Shown here piece by piece: positions 629 to 45,564 of a stretch of DNA of 64,000 bases. Position numbers and translations under genes: made by a program. The stretch covers positions 2,232,001-2,296,000 of the forward strand of contig NZ_CP132938.1 of assembly GCF_040358255.1 (NCBI RefSeq), read 5' to 3'. Positions within the stretch are counted from its first letter, which is position 1, and each line of letters begins with the position of its first letter. The notes beneath the pieces were generated by a model. That model was given only the letters and a program-made list of their open reading frames with translations. It had not been told where the DNA came from and did not search any database. The stretch comes from Tunturibacter gelidoferens (GTDB taxonomy: Bacteria; Acidobacteriota; Terriglobia; Terriglobales; Acidobacteriaceae).

Positions 629-792
629 GGTGGCCAGAATTTGCCTGACGGGTTTTTACTTCGGAAGTGAACTTGATCCGGGTTCGTGCGTAGTCAGTGC
701 AGGACGGGGCTTCGTGATTGCCGGCTGGGCCTGGCCGATTTGCGGGGACCGTCGAGATGCTTTCTGTTTCATCAACCAAAGGAGAGAAGACG

Positions 793-1587
793 ATGACGCT
801 TAATAATGGGAAGGCCGGGCCCTCGAATTTTGTCTGGTATGAGCTGGTGACCTCGGATGCGAAGGCGGCTGAGGCCTTCTATCGCGGCGTGGTGGGGTGG
901 GAGGCGGATACGCAGGCGGGCGTGACTCCGGGGGAACCTTACACCATCTTGAAGGCGGGAAAGGTGCCGGTTGCGGGGATGATGGCGATGCCGAAGGAGT
1001 TCTTTACCGGTGGGACGAAGCCGGGATGGATCGGCTATATCGGGGTTGATGACGTGGAACGATTTACGAAGCGGGTGCAGGAGGCGGGTGGGAAGCTGCA
1101 TCGTCCGGTTCGGGAGATTCCGAGTGTTGGGAGTTTTTCGGTGGTGGCCGATCCGCAGGGAACGGTGTTTGTGCTGTTTCAGCCGAAGGAGGGAGCAGAG
1201 AGACCGCCGGAGCCGCCGGCGGGGACGCCTGGCTATACGAGCTGGCATGAGCTGCATGCTGTGGATGGGAAGTCGGCGTTCGAGTTTTACTCCGGAATGT
1301 TCGGCTGGAAGAAGACTGAGGCGATGGATATGGGGCCGATGGGGGTGTATCAGATGTTCGCGGCAGATGGGCCTCCGATTGGCGGGATGATGACTGCTGA
1401 GGATCAGGCGAATCGTCCGGGTTGGATTTACTACTTCAATGTGGAGAGCGCGGAGGCGGCGGCGGGGAGAGTGAAGGAGAAGGGCGGCAAGGTGTTGATG
1501 GGGCCGCATGAGGTTCCGGGCGGGAGTTGGATTGTGCAGGGGATCGATCCGCAGGGGGCTCTGTTTGCGGTGGTTGGGCCTAAGTAG
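793..1587 (+). CDS. VOC family (glyoxalase-like) protein with two domains
   Basis: 264 residues forming two tandem vicinal-oxygen-chelate modules, about residues 8-130 and 140-262. Each opens with the same pattern ('FVWYELVTSDAKAAEAFY' and 'SWHELHAVDGKSAFEFY') and closes with 'DPQGTVFVLF' or 'DPQGALFAVV'. This duplicated PhnB/glyoxalase-like layout is common in soil bacteria; the substrate is unknown. The start at ATG 793 is chosen because AAAGGAGAG lies just upstream and the homologous region begins here; an in-frame extension to 718 looks non-coding. The gene lies between two DHFR-like reductases. Confidence 0.85.
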   Translation: MTLNNGKAGPSNFVWYELVTSDAKAAEAFYRGVVGWEADTQAGVTPGEPYTILKAGKVPVAGMMAMPKEFFTGGTKPGWIGYIGVDDVERFTKRVQEAGGKLHRPVREIPSVGSFSVVADPQGTVFVLFQPKEGAERPPEPPAGTPGYTSWHELHAVDGKSAFEFYSGMFGWKKTEAMDMGPMGVYQMFAADGPPIGGMMTAEDQANRPGWIYYFNVESAEAAAGRVKEKGGKVLMGPHEVPGGSWIVQGIDPQGALFAVVGPK

Positions 1588-1682
1588 GTACTGCTTTGGA
1601 GACGGCAGTAGATTCTCCCGTTGCAGAGCGACAGAAAGAAGACAGGGGCACCAGCAAAGACGAGATGCGGGGGTTTCTCCAA

Positions 1683-1738
1683 CTGCGCTGCTCACGGTGA
1701 GACTGTGAGCAGCTTCGGTCGAAATGACCGTTTTTTTG
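1683..1738. repeat. Palindromic dispersed repeat, copy 1 of the TTCGGTCGA family
   Basis: The unit has a 9-bp hairpin (1687-1695 with 1705-1713), then CGGTC/GACCG (1716-1720 with 1726-1730) and a T-run. A second copy with the same order of elements lies at 5381-5435. Both have 'ACGGTGAG', 'GCTTCGGTCGA' and 'ATGAC' followed by TTTTT. The element occupies the gap after the VOC gene and could also act as a transcription terminator. Confidence 0.6.
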
Positions 1739-1751
1739 TTGGACTGGAGGA

Positions 1752-1806
1752 CAAGCAAAGGCAACGGCAAAGGCAAAGGCAACGCAACGACAAAGGCAAC
1801 GGCGAC
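1752..1806. repeat. Hexamer low-complexity tract (GGCAAC/GGCAAA)
   Basis: About nine imperfect copies of the hexamers GGCAAC, GGCAAA and close variants run directly upstream of the reductase gene at 1832. The same hexamer type recurs at 6724-6900 and 39655-39790, each time next to a short palindrome. In frame it would encode K-G-N or A-T-A-T, which explains spurious upstream extension of the downstream reading frame. Confidence 0.7.
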
Positions 1807-1831
1807 TACGGCAGAGATAAAGGAGAGTGGA

Positions 1832-2395
1832 ATGCAGAGAGTGATGGTGTTCAACAACGTGTCAGTTGATGGCTACATTGCGGATGAGAAGGGCGACATG
1901 AGCTGGGCTCGTAATGATGACGCAGAGTGGAATGAGTTTGTACAAGGCAATGCCAGCGGGAAGGGCATGCTTTTGTTTGGACGGAAGACGTACGACCTGA
2001 TGGTGAGCTTCTGGCCAACGTCTGCCGCGATTGCGATGATGCCTGAGGTCGCGGAGAAGATGAATAGTGCGAAGAAGGTGGTGTTTTCGAAGTCGATGGA
2101 GACAGCGGGGTGGAAGAATACGACGCTGATGAAGGATGATCCGGTCGAGGCGGTGCGCAAGATGAAGGCGAAGGCCGGGGAAGGGATGGTGATCTTCGGG
2201 AGTGGAACGATCGTCGCGCAACTGGCGGATGCGGGGCTGATCGATGAGTATCAGATCGCGGTGGTGCCGGTGGCTTTGGGTGGGGGAAGGACGATGTTTG
2301 AAGGGCTGGAGAAGAAGTTGAAGTTGAAGCTGACCAAACATCGCGTGTTTGGGAATGGGAGTGTGCTGCTGCACTATGAGCCGGTGCAAGTGTGA
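1832..2395 (+). CDS. Dihydrofolate reductase family protein (RibD C-terminal domain)
   Basis: 187 residues covering a complete RibD_C/DHFR-like domain. It has an N-terminal strand 'VMVFNNVSVDGYIA', a 'LLFGRKTYDLM' helix, 'MVIFGSGTIVAQLADAGLIDEYQIAVVPVALGGGRTMF' and a C-terminal 'GSVLLHYEPV' strand. The fold binds NADPH; members reduce unknown small molecules. ATG 1832 is preceded by AAGGAGAGTGG. Reading upstream only enters the hexamer repeat, so longer starts were rejected. It is a paralogue-type neighbour of the partial gene at the window start. Confidence 0.85.
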   Translation: MQRVMVFNNVSVDGYIADEKGDMSWARNDDAEWNEFVQGNASGKGMLLFGRKTYDLMVSFWPTSAAIAMMPEVAEKMNSAKKVVFSKSMETAGWKNTTLMKDDPVEAVRKMKAKAGEGMVIFGSGTIVAQLADAGLIDEYQIAVVPVALGGGRTMFEGLEKKLKLKLTKHRVFGNGSVLLHYEPVQV

Positions 2396-2428
2396 GCCGG
2401 TGAAGCCTGAGACGGCAGGTGATGGCTG

Positions 2429-3316
2429 CTATTGCGTCGCTGAGACGACGGTGAATCTCGAGCCAAATTGTCTTCCTGAGGATTCGAAGGCGTGGCAGAC
2501 GCGGTTACGGCCGGTGGCTTTGGCAGAGTAGAGCGCTTCGTCGGCGATCTCGATCAGGTCTTCGGAGGTTTCCTTCCATCCGAAGGCGGTGGCGATGCCG
2601 ATGCTGATGGTGGGGGAGCTGATGGGTTTTGCTTCGTACGCGATCATCGTGGACTGAACTGCTTTGCGAACGCGTTCGGCGACGCTCCAGGCCTCGCTGG
2701 AGGCGGATTGAGGGAGGATCACGAGAAACTCCTCTCCGCCGTATCGTCCGATGTATCTGGAGTCGGGGATGATGCGTGCGATGACGCGGCCAAGCTCTTT
2801 GAGGACGATGTCTCCGGCGCGGTGGCCGAAGGTGTCGTTGATGGTTTTGAAGTTGTCGATGTCGATGAGAAGGATGGAGAAGGGTGAGTTGTGCTCGCTG
2901 GAGAGCTGGCATTGCGCGTCGAGAAGAGCCATGATGTGACGGCGGTTGAAGAGCTCGGTGACGGGATCGACGATGGCTGCAAACTCGAGAGCAGCAATCT
3001 TCGAGACATCCTTGGCCGTGTTGAGCGCCAGGGTGCAGACGGTGACGACGAAGATGGATGCGGCGAGGAAGACAAGGCTGACGAGCCAGTCTTCGTGGTG
3101 GTTTGGGCCTTCTGTGCTGTTGATGCGCAGGAATACGGTGACGCCTGCGGCAGAGAGAAGGATGAGTATGCTCATGGAGCGCCAGGTGGAACGTGCGAAT
3201 CCACGAGGGAGCATACCGCAGATCCACCGGATGGGGAAGAGGGCCGAGAGAAGTAATGCGACGGAGCTGGCCAGTATGCACTGAATTATGAGATTTGGGA
3301 TGGATGGAATGATCAT
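2429..3316 (-). CDS. Membrane-bound diguanylate cyclase (GGDEF)
   Basis: 295 residues. Three hydrophobic segments (about 8-28, 46-63, 79-98) form the membrane part, followed by a GGDEF domain. The active-site signature is GGEEF at about 193-197, preceded by the metal/nucleotide segment 'IDIDNFKTINDTFGH'. It should make cyclic di-GMP from two GTP. The product-inhibition RxxD motif expected just before GGEEF is absent (the sequence reads PDSRYIGRY), so feedback inhibition may be lost. No EAL domain follows. The gene is convergent with the preceding reductase. Confidence 0.9.
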   Translation of the reverse strand: MIIPSIPNLIIQCILASSVALLLSALFPIRWICGMLPRGFARSTWRSMSILILLSAAGVTVFLRINSTEGPNHHEDWLVSLVFLAASIFVVTVCTLALNTAKDVSKIAALEFAAIVDPVTELFNRRHIMALLDAQCQLSSEHNSPFSILLIDIDNFKTINDTFGHRAGDIVLKELGRVIARIIPDSRYIGRYGGEEFLVILPQSASSEAWSVAERVRKAVQSTMIAYEAKPISSPTISIGIATAFGWKETSEDLIEIADEALYSAKATGRNRVCHAFESSGRQFGSRFTVVSATQ

Positions 3317-6723: not shown

Positions 6724-6900
6724 AGAGGCAACGGCAAGGGCGATACAGCAGATCCCCTTCGGGGATGACAACCAAGGAGGCAACGGCAACTGGAGATGCA
6801 ACGTCAACTTCAGCGGCAACTGCAACTGCCGAGGCAACTGCAAAGGTAAAGGCAACTGCAACTGCAAAGGTAAGGGCAACTGCGAAGGTGAGGGTATGCG
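6724..6900. repeat. Palindrome plus hexamer array upstream of moaE
   Basis: The perfect palindrome ATCCCCTTCGGGGAT (6752-6766) is followed by GACAACC and then about 110 bases of GGCAAC, TGCAAC and GGTAA-type hexamers. The same order (palindrome, ATGACAAC, hexamers) recurs at 39632-39790, and a variant lies inside priA at 43733-43770. Because the unit is six bases long, the moaE frame stays open through the array as an A/T/K-rich extension that is unlikely to be translated. Confidence 0.75.
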
Positions 6901-18289: not shown

Positions 18290-20488
18290 CTATTTGGGAG
18301 GCGGCTGCTTCGACTCTGTTTTGGGTTGTGGGGGATGGGCGACTGGATGAGGAATAGGCTCGGGCTGCTCATGTGGACCGGCTGGGCGTCCGCTGCGCAG
18401 ATTTTCGACCTGCTGTGGACCAAGAGGGCGGCCGGGGTCGGTCTTCTGTATGGCCTGTCGTTGCTGAACGAAGGTGGGTTGCGCGGGCGGGGGCTCGCTT
18501 CGGTTGATGAGCGGACGAGGTTGATCGACGGGCCGTGGCTGCGGCTTCGGTTGAGCGGCTTGCGCCGGAGGCTCGGGCTTCGGCTGGATGACCGGAGGTG
18601 GCGGCTGCGGTCTAGGTTGTGTTGCTTGCGCGGGCGGTTCGGGCCTTGATTGGTTGACGGGAGCCACGCTTTGCGGCTTCGGCTGGATGACCGGAGGTGG
18701 CGGCTGCGGTTTTGGTTGGGCCACTTGCACCGGAGGCTCGGGCTTTGGTTGGTTGATTGGAGCTACAGGTTGAGACCGTGGCGGGTTGGACTGGGCTGTG
18801 GGCTGTGCGGGTTGTGCCGGGACGGCGCGCGCGGGCTGGTTTGGAGTAGGTCGTTCTACGATTGCTTGTCGTTGAACGGGTGCGGGTGCGGGCTGCTGGA
18901 TCGGTTTCTGGCCGCCGGGCAGAGGTTGGAGTTTGACTGCCTGCTGTTGCGGGGTGAGGGTATGGACTGGGACGGGGTGGGCCTGGGCTCCGGGGACGGC
19001 CTGCGCAAGGCCAACGCGGGTTTGCAGGACGGGGCGTGCGAGGTTGACGGGAACGGCTCGGGCTGGGGCAGGCGCCACGATCTCATGGGTGGGTGTGATC
19101 ATGGGGTGGGGCATGACCTGAGCCTGGACGAGCTGCTTTGGATCTACGTGAACGGCTGCTGACGCTACCGGACGTCCGGCAGCGAATGCGCGCTGGGGAA
19201 CGACGGTGGTGGCGGCGGTGCGATTGACGTAGGTGATGTTGTTGATGGTGGTGTTGTTGACGGTTGTCTTGTTGATGTAGGTGTTGGTGGTGCGGTTGTT
19301 GTAGATGTTGCGGATCTCGGTGTCGTTGCGGCTATAGATGTTGGTGACGTTGACGCGGTTCACGTAGCCGGGGCTCGCGTGATACCAGGGAACGTAGGTT
19401 TCGCGCGGGCCGAGTGGGAACCATGCGGCGAGACCTCCCCCGTTGCCGCCGCCGAAGCCAACGCTAACGGAGAAGTTGGATCCTCCGACGAAGGCTACCA
19501 GAGCTGGAGAGTAGACGGGACGCACGATGGTGGGGCCAGGGATCCATCCCCAGCGTCCGTTGAAGCTGGCCCAGCGGCCGTAGTGGAAGGGTGCGAATCC
19601 CCAGGGTTCGGCTTCGACCCAGGTCCAGCCCCAGGGGGCGATCCAGGCCCAGTGGCCGTTATGGTAGGGGGTCCAGCTGGCGTCGACGTTGCGGGGATAC
19701 CAGACCTGACCGTAGTCCGATTGGGAAAACCATTCTCCATACTCTTGAAGGTCGCTGTATCCGATCATGTTTGGGTTGACGTACTGCTGCTGGGCGGCGC
19801 GGTCGGCCATCTGGCGGCGGTCGCGATCCTGATCGAAGCGGTCGAGGTTGTCGCCTGGGGCGAGCTCAACATATTCGACGTAGATGGGGTTGGAGCCGGT
19901 GAGGCGGAGGGCCTGGCCGGGATTGATAGCTTGAGAAAGATTGGGCCCGGTGGCTTCGGCCTCTCCGGAGTTGACGGTGACGACGGTGGTGTCGTCCTGG
20001 GGGTAGCTGTCGATGCGCACGTCGCCGGGACGGACAATGGTGATGGTGCCGTTGGGGGTATCGATTTCGATGGTGGCGCCGTTCTGGAGGTCCCAGCTGC
20101 GGATGTGGACGGAGCCCTGGGCGAGGCCGAGTTGGGCGACCTGATCGGTCATGCTGGTGAGGGAGAGGTCGGCACCGAGGCCCATGCGGATGGCGAGGGC
20201 GTCGCTTTGAAGTTCGGCGAAGCTGGAGTTGTCGACGTAGATGCGGTCGCCGTTGGTGAGGGGATAGTTGGTTTCGGCCTGGCTGAACTGATCGACGCCA
20301 GCGGGCTGGAGGGAGACGTTGCCTTGAAGGATGCTAAGGCGGGCGACGCGCTCGGGTGGGTCTGTGTTCTGAGGATAATCCTGGGCATGCAGGGAGAGGG
20401 CAGAGAGGAGGGTGAGGACGAATGAGGCGATGATGCTCTGCTTGAAGAAGCCCCTAATGGTCGTACTACGTGTTTGTGGGGTTTTCAT
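18290..20488 (-). CDS. FecR-domain protein with aromatic central domain and proline-rich tail
   Basis: 732 residues. Residues 1-36 are a signal peptide, 60-190 a FecR-like beta domain ('LQGNVSLQPAG', 'DRIYVDNSSFAEL', 'GSVHIRSWDLQ'). A Trp/Tyr/Gly-rich region with 'HWAWIAPWGWTWVE' and 'HYGRWASFNGRWGW' (DUF6600-like) spans about 250-370. An Asn/Thr tract follows, then a long P/Q/A-rich tail (about 480-732) with repeated 'QPKPQPPPPVIQPKP' blocks. It is probably a surface or periplasmic structural protein. The start at 20488 is set by CGAGGAACG and the signal peptide. Confidence 0.8.
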   Translation of the reverse strand: MKTPQTRSTTIRGFFKQSIIASFVLTLLSALSLHAQDYPQNTDPPERVARLSILQGNVSLQPAGVDQFSQAETNYPLTNGDRIYVDNSSFAELQSDALAIRMGLGADLSLTSMTDQVAQLGLAQGSVHIRSWDLQNGATIEIDTPNGTITIVRPGDVRIDSYPQDDTTVVTVNSGEAEATGPNLSQAINPGQALRLTGSNPIYVEYVELAPGDNLDRFDQDRDRRQMADRAAQQQYVNPNMIGYSDLQEYGEWFSQSDYGQVWYPRNVDASWTPYHNGHWAWIAPWGWTWVEAEPWGFAPFHYGRWASFNGRWGWIPGPTIVRPVYSPALVAFVGGSNFSVSVGFGGGNGGGLAAWFPLGPRETYVPWYHASPGYVNRVNVTNIYSRNDTEIRNIYNNRTTNTYINKTTVNNTTINNITYVNRTAATTVVPQRAFAAGRPVASAAVHVDPKQLVQAQVMPHPMITPTHEIVAPAPARAVPVNLARPVLQTRVGLAQAVPGAQAHPVPVHTLTPQQQAVKLQPLPGGQKPIQQPAPAPVQRQAIVERPTPNQPARAVPAQPAQPTAQSNPPRSQPVAPINQPKPEPPVQVAQPKPQPPPPVIQPKPQSVAPVNQSRPEPPAQATQPRPQPPPPVIQPKPEPPAQAAQPKPQPRPVDQPRPLINRSEPPPAQPTFVQQRQAIQKTDPGRPLGPQQVENLRSGRPAGPHEQPEPIPHPVAHPPQPKTESKQPPPK

Positions 20489-39492: not shown

Positions 39493-39631
39493 ATCTTTAT
39501 CCAGTTTACGGGATTGGTGGTAACTAATACGCCACGCGAATCTCCTTTATTGGCGCGGGGATTTGCGATTTGAGGGCTTGACAGGTTTTTGAGGGGGTGG
39601 GAGGACGGGCAACGACAAAAAGCAAAAGCAG

Positions 39632-39842
39632 ATCCCCTGCGGGGATGACAACAAGAAAGGCAACCGCAACTGCAACGGCAACTGCAACTGCAACTGCAAC
39701 TGCGACCGCAACTGCAACTGCGACCGCAACTGCAACTGCGACCGCAAGTGCAACGGCAACCGCAAGTGCAACGCAACCGCAATTGCAAGCGCAACTGCGA
39801 AATACAGGGATCCTCCCCCTTCGGGACGCTCAGGGTCAGGAT
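39632..39842. repeat. Palindrome plus hexamer array (longest copy)
   Basis: The palindrome ATCCCCTGCGGGGAT (39632-39646) is followed by GACAACAAG and about 130 bases of CAACTG/CGGCAA/CGACCG hexamers (39655-39790). A different REP-type palindrome follows (ATCCT 39810-39814 with AGGAT 39838-39842, containing CCCTTCGGGACGCTCAGGG). The array starts like the one upstream of moaE. It ends about 25 bases from the 3' end of the RNase T2 gene. Confidence 0.75.
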
Positions 39843-42897: not shown

Positions 42898-45564
42898 ATG
42901 GCTTTGTTTTGCGATGTTGCTTTGCCGGTGCCTCTGGATAGGACGTTTACCTATGCGGTGAACGGGGTGGTGCCGGTGGTGGGGGCGCGGGTGCTGGTGC
43001 CGTTCAGCGGGCAGAGGCTGATGGGCGTGGTGGTGCGGGTGCATGAGGATGCGCCGGTGGAGGAGTTTGAGATCAAGCCGGTGCAGCAGGTGTTGGATGA
43101 TGCGGCGCTGTTGCCTGAGGAGTTGATGAAGCTCGCGGGGTGGATCGCGCAGTACTATGTCGCGCCGCTGGGTGAGGTGCTGCGAGGGATGCTGCCGCTG
43201 GCGGCGGAGGTGAAGCGGCATTTTTCTTATCGGATCGCGGAGGCTGGGAGGAAGGTGTTGTATGAGGGGGCGGTGAAGGGGTCTTCGCGGCGATCGAAGC
43301 TGACGGTGGAGGAGCAGAATCGCGAGTACTCGGTGCTGAATTATCTGGAGGGGGGCGAGGCGGCGAAGATGTCGGCTCTGCGATCGGCTACGGGGGCGAA
43401 TAAGGGGTTGCTGGAGGGGATGGTTCGAAAGAAGTGGCTGGTGAGGGAGGCGGTGGCGGAGGAGAGAGATGCGCGGCGGCTGGAGAAGGTCGCGGTGTTA
43501 GTGACTGAAGCTCGGCTACCGAAGTTGAATGAGAATCAGACGGCGATTCTGGCGGAGTTGGCAGCGGTGGGTGGGCGGATGCGGGTGCGAGATCTGCGGT
43601 TGAGTTTGACGCGTGCGGGAGTGCCGGAGTCTACGTTAGGGACGCTGGTGAAGCGCGGGCTGGTGGGGGTTGAAGAGGTGAAGCGGGAGTTCTGGATGGG
43701 AGGGCTGGTTGCGGAGGGTGGAGAAGAAGCAGATTCCTCCGCTGCGCTGCGGAATGACAACCAAAAAAACAGGAACTTGCGTGCCCCCGAGGACCGGACG
43801 ATGCGTGCGCAAGAGGATACGACGATGCGTGCGCAAGAGGATACGACATTGCATGCGCAAGAGAACAGGACGATGCATGCGGGCGAGAAGAGGAAGAAGC
43901 ATGCGCATGAACATGCTTTGAACGAGGCGCAGATGGAGGCGCTCGGGACGATCGCGGCAGCGATGGAGAAGGGTGGGTTCAGGCCGCATCTGCTGTATGG
44001 GATTACGGGGAGTGGAAAGACTTCGGTTTATTTTGCGGCGATGCAGAGGGCGCTGGATGCGGGGAAGAGCGCGTTGCTGCTGGTGCCGGAGATTGGGTTG
44101 ACGCCGGCGATGGCAGGGCAGATGGTGGCGGCGTTTGGCGGTGAGGTGGCACTGCTGCACTCGCAGCTGACGCCGGATGAGCGGGCAGAGCAGTGGCACA
44201 GGATTCGTCGGGGTGAGGCGAGGATTGTGGTGGGGACGCGGTCTGCGGTGTTTGCGCCGATGGTGGATCTGGGATTGATCATCGTCGATGAAGAACATGA
44301 CTCGAGCTACAAGCAGGAGGAGACGCCGCGGTATCACGGGCGCGATGTTGCGGTGATGCGGGCGAAGTTCAATGAAGCTGTGGTGGTGCTGGGGTCGGCG
44401 ACGCCTTCGCTTGAGAGCTGGGCGAATGCGGAGAAGGGGCGGTATGCGCGGGTGGAGATGCGCGCGCGGGTTGCGGACAGGCCGATGCCGCTGGTGGAGC
44501 TGGTGGATATGCGGGAGGAGTTTCGCGAGACGGGGCAGGAGCAGATCTTTTCGCGGAGGTTGATGGAGGAGACGCAGGCTACGCTCGACCGCGGGGAGCA
44601 GGTGATTTTGTTGTTGAATCGGCGGGGGTACTCGTCGACGGTGTTGTGCCGGAGCTGCGGGGAGAAGATCGAGTGCGAGAACTGCGCGGTGTCGATGACT
44701 TATCACAAGCCGGTGAGTGGCAATGATGCGATTGCGCAGCCGGGACAGCGATTGGAGTGTCACTACTGCGGATCGCGACGGGCGGTGCCCAAGGCTTGTC
44801 CGAAGTGTGAGAGTGAACATCTTTATTTTCTTGGAGTGGGCTCGCAGCAGGGAGAGGAGAGGCTGCAGGAGCTGTTTCCGACGGCGCGGATTGGGCGGAT
44901 GGATCGCGATACGGTGCGCGGGCGAAGTGATATGGAGCGGCTGCTGGCGAGGCTCCATGGGGGCGAGATCAATCTGTTGGTGGGGACGCAGATGATCGCG
45001 AAGGGACATGACATCCATGGAGTGACGCTGGTTGGAGTGATTGGGGCGGACTTCCAACTCGGGCTGCCGGACTTTCGCGCGGCGGAGAGAGTGTTTCAGT
45101 TGCTGACCCAGGTGTCAGGCCGGGCGGGGCGTGGGGATCTGATTGGGAAAGTGCTGGTGCAGACGTACCATCCGGATCACTATGCGATTCAGTTCGCGGC
45201 GAAGCATGACTATCCTGGGTTTGTAGCGAAGGAGATGCAGTATCGGCGATGGATGCACTATCCGCCGTTTGCGGTGCTGGCGAATGTGGTGGTTCAGAGC
45301 GAGAAGCTGGAGGAGGCCACGGCGTGGGCGGGAACGCTGGGGCGATGGTTTCAGAAGGCTCGGTTGGATAAGGTGCGGGTATTGGGGCCGGCGGCGGCAC
45401 CAATTGTCCGGTTGAAGCGGATTTACCGGTACCACTTTGTGCTGAAGGCGGAGCGGCGGCAGACGCTGGGCGAGACGCTGCGGGCGATGCTGGCTTATGC
45501 GGAGACGCAAGGGATTGCGCGCCGAAACCTGATGGTCGACGTGGATGCTGTGCACCTGATGTGA
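42898..45564 (+). CDS. priA: Primosomal replication protein N' (helicase PriA) with repeat insertion
   Basis: 888 residues. The N-terminal DNA-binding domain has 'PLDRTFTYAVNG', the helicase has Walker A 'GITGSGKTSVYF' and 'IIVDEEHDSSYK', and the zinc domain has 'CRSCGEKIECENC' and 'CHYCGSRRAVPKACPKC'. It restarts stalled replication forks. Residues about 275-340 are foreign to the family: a short palindromic DNA repeat (43733-43770) and then six 24-bp tandem units (43774-43917) that give octapeptides such as TMRAQEDT. They sit between the DNA-binding part and the helicase core. Confidence 0.95.
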   Translation: MALFCDVALPVPLDRTFTYAVNGVVPVVGARVLVPFSGQRLMGVVVRVHEDAPVEEFEIKPVQQVLDDAALLPEELMKLAGWIAQYYVAPLGEVLRGMLPLAAEVKRHFSYRIAEAGRKVLYEGAVKGSSRRSKLTVEEQNREYSVLNYLEGGEAAKMSALRSATGANKGLLEGMVRKKWLVREAVAEERDARRLEKVAVLVTEARLPKLNENQTAILAELAAVGGRMRVRDLRLSLTRAGVPESTLGTLVKRGLVGVEEVKREFWMGGLVAEGGEEADSSAALRNDNQKNRNLRAPEDRTMRAQEDTTMRAQEDTTLHAQENRTMHAGEKRKKHAHEHALNEAQMEALGTIAAAMEKGGFRPHLLYGITGSGKTSVYFAAMQRALDAGKSALLLVPEIGLTPAMAGQMVAAFGGEVALLHSQLTPDERAEQWHRIRRGEARIVVGTRSAVFAPMVDLGLIIVDEEHDSSYKQEETPRYHGRDVAVMRAKFNEAVVVLGSATPSLESWANAEKGRYARVEMRARVADRPMPLVELVDMREEFRETGQEQIFSRRLMEETQATLDRGEQVILLLNRRGYSSTVLCRSCGEKIECENCAVSMTYHKPVSGNDAIAQPGQRLECHYCGSRRAVPKACPKCESEHLYFLGVGSQQGEERLQELFPTARIGRMDRDTVRGRSDMERLLARLHGGEINLLVGTQMIAKGHDIHGVTLVGVIGADFQLGLPDFRAAERVFQLLTQVSGRAGRGDLIGKVLVQTYHPDHYAIQFAAKHDYPGFVAKEMQYRRWMHYPPFAVLANVVVQSEKLEEATAWAGTLGRWFQKARLDKVRVLGPAAAPIVRLKRIYRYHFVLKAERRQTLGETLRAMLAYAETQGIARRNLMVDVDAVHLM
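43733..43917 (+). repeat. In-frame dispersed repeat plus six 24-bp tandem units inside priA
   Basis: ATTCC (43733-43737) pairs with GGAAT (43751-43755), followed by GACAACCAAAAAAACAGG, which resembles the intergenic palindrome-ATGACAAC repeats. Six 24-bp units follow at 43774, 43798, 43822, 43846, 43870 and 43894. Units 2 and 3 are identical; the others differ by several bases. Each encodes an octapeptide like TMRAQEDT, TLHAQENR or TMHAGEKR. The reading frame is kept because every unit is a multiple of three. Confidence 0.88.

Follow-up and report, generated by a model that had tools for sequence, protein, structure and literature searches.

The priA gene and its in-frame repeat

In the window, by which we mean the whole 64-kb stretch of DNA that was analysed, the plus strand encodes at 42898..45564 a PriA protein of 888 amino acids, identified by Pfam domains and by alignment with PriA proteins of the PDB. 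The product contains PriA_3primeBD (residues 6-100), DEAD, Helicase_C, Zn_ribbon_PriA and PriA_C, that is, the 3'BD, helicase, zinc ribbon and C-terminal domains of a PriA. Alignments with the PDB entries 4nl4 and 6dgd cover residues 5-105 and 340-885 and leave out an insertion that is absent from the priA genes of relatives. Despite this insertion the frame stays open over 888 amino acids with all domains.

The insertion begins with a REP-like palindrome and its A-rich tail, AGCAGATTCCTCCGCTGCGCTGCGGAATGACAACCAAAAAAACAGG (43728..43773, plus strand), which reads in frame from 43729 as ADSSAALRNDNQKNR. It is a full copy of an element dispersed in the genome. The reverse strand reads TTGTCATTCC and carries an end tag of the CGTC/TGTC/CCTC type; inspection of 43728-43773 revealed no GTAG tag. 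A hairpin with a stem of 5 bp and a loop of 6 is predicted from RNA energies.

The palindrome is followed on the same strand by an array of 24-bp units: NLRAPEDR (43774..43797, from Tandem Repeats Finder, TRF, and reading of the units), two units TMRAQEDT identical to each other (43798..43821 and 43822..43845), TLHAQENR (43846..43869) and TMHAGEKR (43870..43893, from reading). TRF calls the array at 43797-43881 with score 121 and, in a longer version, at 43768-43907 with score 91; when priA was codon-shuffled 200 times, the scores reached 83 at most. The first-pass annotation, which described a palindromic repeat and six 24-bp units in frame within the PriA linker, two adjacent ones being identical, is largely right: all parts are in place and the identical neighbours are units 2 and 3. 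However, five units were added (43774-43893), not six, because the last one (43894..43917, plus strand, in register with the array) is the native PriA segment KKHAHEHA, retained in uninserted relatives.

This native segment may have seeded the array. In the uninserted priA of G002, it is the best of 826 in-frame 24-mers for unit 4 (14/24 identical positions with a run of 9 bases), and it also ranks first of 826 for units 4 and 5 of a second inserted genome, G014. Its ranks for units 1, 2, 3 and 5 are 5, 3, 3 and 13 of 826, and unrelated places in the window agree better with a unit, at up to 18/24 positions. A recurrence of the octapeptides elsewhere in the genome, for which the annotation suggested a search, was not borne out: blastn of the whole stretch against its own genome, with 40 of 68 first-look candidates scored, gave nothing beyond a match of 19-20 bases (E 1.8).

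Upstream of the palindrome lies a patch of 13 codons, KREFWMGGLVAEG (43681..43719, plus strand), identical at 22-24 of 39 bp to the five nearest uninserted species. The flanks of the patch are identical to the same species at 102-107 of 120 bp upstream and 104-111 of 120 bp downstream. This strong divergence of the 13 codons would not be expected from a clean insertion.

The AlphaFold model of the protein (45 sequences) has a mean pLDDT of 87. Its sole segment with pLDDT below 50 is 273-336 and coincides with the insertion, although the low value is partly expected, since the aligned relatives lack the insertion. As the PDB alignments skip it and the model assigns low confidence there, the insertion is placed in a linker for which no fold is predicted and which connects the winged-helix part with lobe 1 of the helicase. 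Among its 56 residues, 11 are acidic and 10 basic. Given a tolerant linker and a preserved frame, PriA most likely still works.

A dispersed family of palindromes with downstream arrays

The core pattern of the element occurs at 47 places of the 5.58-Mb genome with at most 3 mismatches, and the reversed control gives 0. By blastn the genome contains at least 46 matches to the priA element at E 2.9e-7 or better, itself counted. The suggested similarity of the palindrome to other genomic repeats thus holds. The 25-base core in priA coincides with the family pattern without a mismatch and is followed by the A-rich tail of the family; within the window, the 31-base core (43730-43760) is matched at a single place with no more than 3 mismatches, against 0.00 expected in shuffled sequences.

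The statement that repeats of this type lie between genes of the same window holds in part. Two intergenic elements, at 6748-6883 and 39628-39798, have a similar layout, GCAGAT...ATGACAAC followed by GCAACT-type arrays, but have another stem, and elsewhere in the 64 kb the family pattern finds no match better than 5 mismatches. As the pattern fails to match them, these two elements are recognised by reading only. A separate tandem repeat of the window, at 18576-18763, consists of 1.9 copies of a 99-bp unit (TRF score 278).

With a longer pattern and at most 1 mismatch, the element was found in 42 of the genus's 62 genomes; single genomes have from 0 to 258 copies, 1092 altogether, and the reversed pattern gave no hit. 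The 40 genomic copies that were inspected mostly start with GCAGATT at the 5' end, continue with the palindrome and the A-rich tail, and are often followed by GCAAC-type repeats. Tandem arrays with TRF score 50 or more within 150 bp were found 3' of 15 of the 40 copies (that of priA included), 5' of 3, and in 2 of 400 control pieces. The excess of the 3' over the 5' side has Fisher p 0.0025, and that of the 5' side over the control p 0.006. When the threshold is lowered to 30, the counts are 17/40, 11/40 and 13/400, and the 3' excess is weaker. Thus an array is common for the element and not peculiar to priA. Close pairs of elements at L001, L005, L007, L014 and L026, examples and not a systematic count of dimers, have the same orientation within each pair.

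A search for a dedicated transposase yielded one Y1_Tnp match in the genome, the RAYT-like L202 (G000:C2:2656756-2657007), and its 3252-bp locus contains zero copies of the element at 3 or fewer mismatches. Another palindrome beside this gene, with GAGATATGGGGCACCC, was considered as a dispersed repeat and rejected, as its exact 16-mer occurs in 0 of the other 341 loci.

Palindromic elements inside protein-coding genes (RPE) were reportedly described in Rickettsia by Ogata et al. in 2000. According to the passages on RPE in PMC3767692 and PMC10969869, these are dispersed palindromes of 100-150 bp inside open reading frames of Rickettsia and Wolbachia, which keep the frame; ATGAC is a common motif in some classes. 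The priA element is likewise a dispersed multicopy palindrome containing ATGAC, with an in-frame position in a conserved gene that is left unbroken. Unlike these RPE, it is about 46 bp long, belongs to Acidobacteria and has a local 24-bp array behind it. Moreover, the orthologues treated in that part of PMC3767692 each have the RPE at the same locus, whereas sister species of the present genome have no insertion.

Intragenic REPs of the CGTC and GTAG types, many of them in replication and repair genes, are the subject of Di Nocera et al. 2013 (PMC3733652), so that palindromes in frame within such genes are already described. In the parts of that paper concerned with structure, CGTC REPs have stems of 8-9 bp and loops of 4-5 and mostly form head-to-head dimers, and TGTC is a stated variant of CGTC. 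The present element resembles them in being a short palindrome with many copies, an unpaired end tag (here TGTC) and some copies in replication and repair genes; it differs in its predicted stem of 5 bp and loop of 6 and in the same orientation of close pairs. Acidobacteria is absent from the five phyla listed there for CGTC REPs, and the main text of the paper names neither PriA nor RecG. Unlike RAYT-mobilised GTAG REPs, the element has no GTAG tag and does not flank the sole Y1_Tnp locus. Our literature search found no paper on extragenic palindromic repeats together with RecG and PriA, nor on Granulicella repeats with RecG.

Coding tandem repeats (VNTR) are made by slippage. The priA array is similar to them in a period that is a multiple of three, in identical neighbouring units and in a copy number that differs within a species (5 against 6 units, in two genomes only). 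It differs in its position directly behind a dispersed palindrome and in the native codons as a possible seed.

Helicase linkers across the genus

A DNA search with the units, in which at most 13 candidates were scored in each genome, gave matches in 45 of the 62 genomes of the genus; among the matches listed, those of G000 (the present genome) and G014 cover the units, and those of the other 43 cover the native end. The PriA set comprised 61 loci, 58 with a readable linker; G060 and G061 were left out, L113 and L121 gave no PriA open reading frame, and L084 ends at a contig end. Between two anchor motifs the linker measures 62-74 amino acids in 56 of the 58 readable loci, against 125 in G000 and 133 in G014. 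The insertion is absent from the five nearest species, which are 97-98% identical over residues 329-888. G014, assigned to the same species, has the same palindromic element with six units, one more than G000. Thus the copy number varies, as the first-pass annotation had anticipated, and neither linker length nor unit number is the same in all relatives. The array lengths come from two genome assemblies.

In the single-contig genome G023 (L118), PriA is apparently split between two frames near residue 415. At L084 and in G036 (L121) contig ends cut PriA in the linker region; repeats there could cause such cuts.

Ten of the 61 loci have inserts of at least 21 amino acids in a second PriA linker, located between KVAVLV and RLPKLNENQ; nine of these were measured, and that of L079 was identified by reading. 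Five of these inserts were queried against seven genomes, with PriA itself included in the counts and no more than 40 candidates scored; the site-A inserts of G022 (L108) and G027 (L117) were outside the queried set. The G030 insert has at least 11 matches in G030, the G040 insert at least 17 in G040, 22 in G034 and 3 in G030, the G031 insert at least 41 in G031, and the G044 insert at least 28 in G044 and 5 in G032. The G043 insert has 2 matches in G043 including PriA itself, among the matches listed, and is not a proven repeat. The palindrome inserted in G030 is related to that of G000, and a 24-bp array with 4.9 copies (TRF score 178) begins in its 3' arm; this is the design of G000, placed in the other linker. 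The assembly of G030 (listed contamination 6%) contains two different PriA genes, L075 and L120, with different inserts in the same linker.

On a tree of 56 genomes, which omits G030 as a mixed assembly with two PriA and two RecG open reading frames, the PriA repeat class requires at least seven changes, the unproven G043 insert being counted and gains not distinguished from losses. As there are four repeat classes, at least four gains occurred in PriA. PriA is not enriched for the element of G000 alone (2 related genomes against 0.74 copies expected), and the case for recurrence in PriA depends on the other repeat families.

The RecG of the same genome (L017, minus strand 768-3023; G000:C2 near 2388945) contains the element in frame between the Pfam domains DEAD and Helicase_C. 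Among 62 RecG open reading frames from 61 genomes (L247-L308, some of them partial; two from G030 and none from G004), 11 contain the pattern with at most 1 mismatch, at either of two sites. Uniform placement would give 0.69 copies in 62 genomes, an expectation that ignores shared descent. Mapped on the tree, the element requires 3 changes at site 1 and 5 at site 2; a single gain with several losses may account for this. At 5 or fewer mismatches, PriA and RecG together give 16 pattern hits, every one in the same orientation and frame, which could point to selection on the peptide. Variant palindromes in PriA of G030 and RecG of G046 use another frame. In RecG of G042 and G060 (L275 and L277), the palindrome adjoins a second insert, HPTHHGETAMDGAP, in one linker, and inserts like HPTHHGETAMDGAP recur in RecG of G025, G053, G003 and G037.

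In Mfd, taken as a control helicase, the pattern was found in 0 of 27 open reading frames. This absence tells little, because only about 1.07 copies are expected even in all 62 genomes. Individual genomes (G042, G022, G043) have inserts in Mfd, and close to its C-terminus the protein varies over a stretch of up to 66 amino acids.

Open reading frames over the element were collected for 40 genomic copies and six more (L337-L342), and eight, all from outside L337-L342, were compared with Pfam. An S9 peptidase frame (L014:1182-3023) contains two tandem in-frame copies of the palindrome, at residues 106 and 125. Besides this frame and that of RecG, three of the Pfam-tested frames matched no family, and three have the element at residues 4-25, where it probably lies upstream of the true start.

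Probable origin and possible meaning of the insert

The best explanation, to which we assign a probability of about 0.7, is that a dispersed REP-like palindrome was inserted in frame into a flexible linker of PriA, that slippage on its 3' side then built the array, and that the result is tolerated. The element family, the in-frame position, the absence from sister species, the difference in unit number, the low-confidence linker and the 3' arrays elsewhere were observed directly. From them we infer insertion over other origins, slippage, native seeding and neutrality, as follows. The palindrome (GCAGAT-palindrome-ATGACAAC with the A-rich tail) would have entered the interdomain linker in frame in an ancestor of the species. 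The DNA on its 3' side would then have slipped in replication and accumulated copies of 24 bp, for which the adjacent native codons of KKHAHEHA may have served as the seed, and the one-unit difference between the two genomes suggests an array that is still changing. The insertion would persist because translation of the element in this frame gives a hydrophilic peptide, the length of the array stays divisible by three and the linker lacks a fixed fold.

One possibility is that the insertion has been kept for a function: a longer charged linker would change the reach between the DNA-binding part of PriA and its motor, and the repeats of both helicases, PriA and RecG, would be an adaptive tuning of replication restart. 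The genome has the element in both proteins, the 11 RecG frames compare with 0.69 copies expected, the repeat class of PriA changed at least seven times on the tree, and Di Nocera et al. 2013, in the part of PMC3733652 on replication and repair genes, find REPs there hard to credit to chance. However, the peptides, their lengths and their positions in the linkers vary by species, as for tolerated filler; the RecG expectation takes no account of shared descent, the two PriA genes with this element are related and compare with 0.74 expected, and the seven changes include the unproven G043 insert and mix gains with losses. We consider this reading unlikely, and altered helicase function through the insert possible.

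The diverged patch suggests another history, in which the whole linker, element and patch together, was acquired by recombination from the priA of another lineage already holding the element. In agreement with this, the patch differs from all five sisters and has REFWMGGL in common with the distant G013, and the divergence of G000 and G014 is uneven, with 32 of 876 priA bases differing upstream of the array against 15 of 1671 downstream. On the other hand, the patch and G013 agree at no more than 25 of 39 bp, the element is missing from G013, and the units were found in 0 of the other 60 genomes of the genus, among the matches listed, which leaves such an acquisition very doubtful. Local slippage probably did shape the 24-bp units, so the palindrome and the array could both have formed within priA by chance, with a mere resemblance to the dispersed repeat. 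Against a 25-base core that equals the family pattern without mismatch, a reversed control of 0 and the presence of the A-rich tail, this is extremely improbable. Tolerated selfish DNA in flexible linkers, together with slippage, is the most likely explanation.

Of greater interest than the single case is that inserts recur across the genus in both PriA and RecG. It is conceivable, although decidedly unlikely, that the interdomain linkers of these two enzymes are standing docking sites, where unrelated palindromes repeatedly become peptide modules, mostly in one frame and sometimes with a 24-bp expansion. If that were true, selfish repeats would keep remodelling the enzymes of replication restart. 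With two fork helicases, several repeat families, uninserted sister species and an array that changes its length, the genus is well suited to a test of the argument about chance, as put forward in that part of PMC3733652. The dense set of relatives makes the question of whether such insertions are tolerated junk or useful linkers an answerable one.
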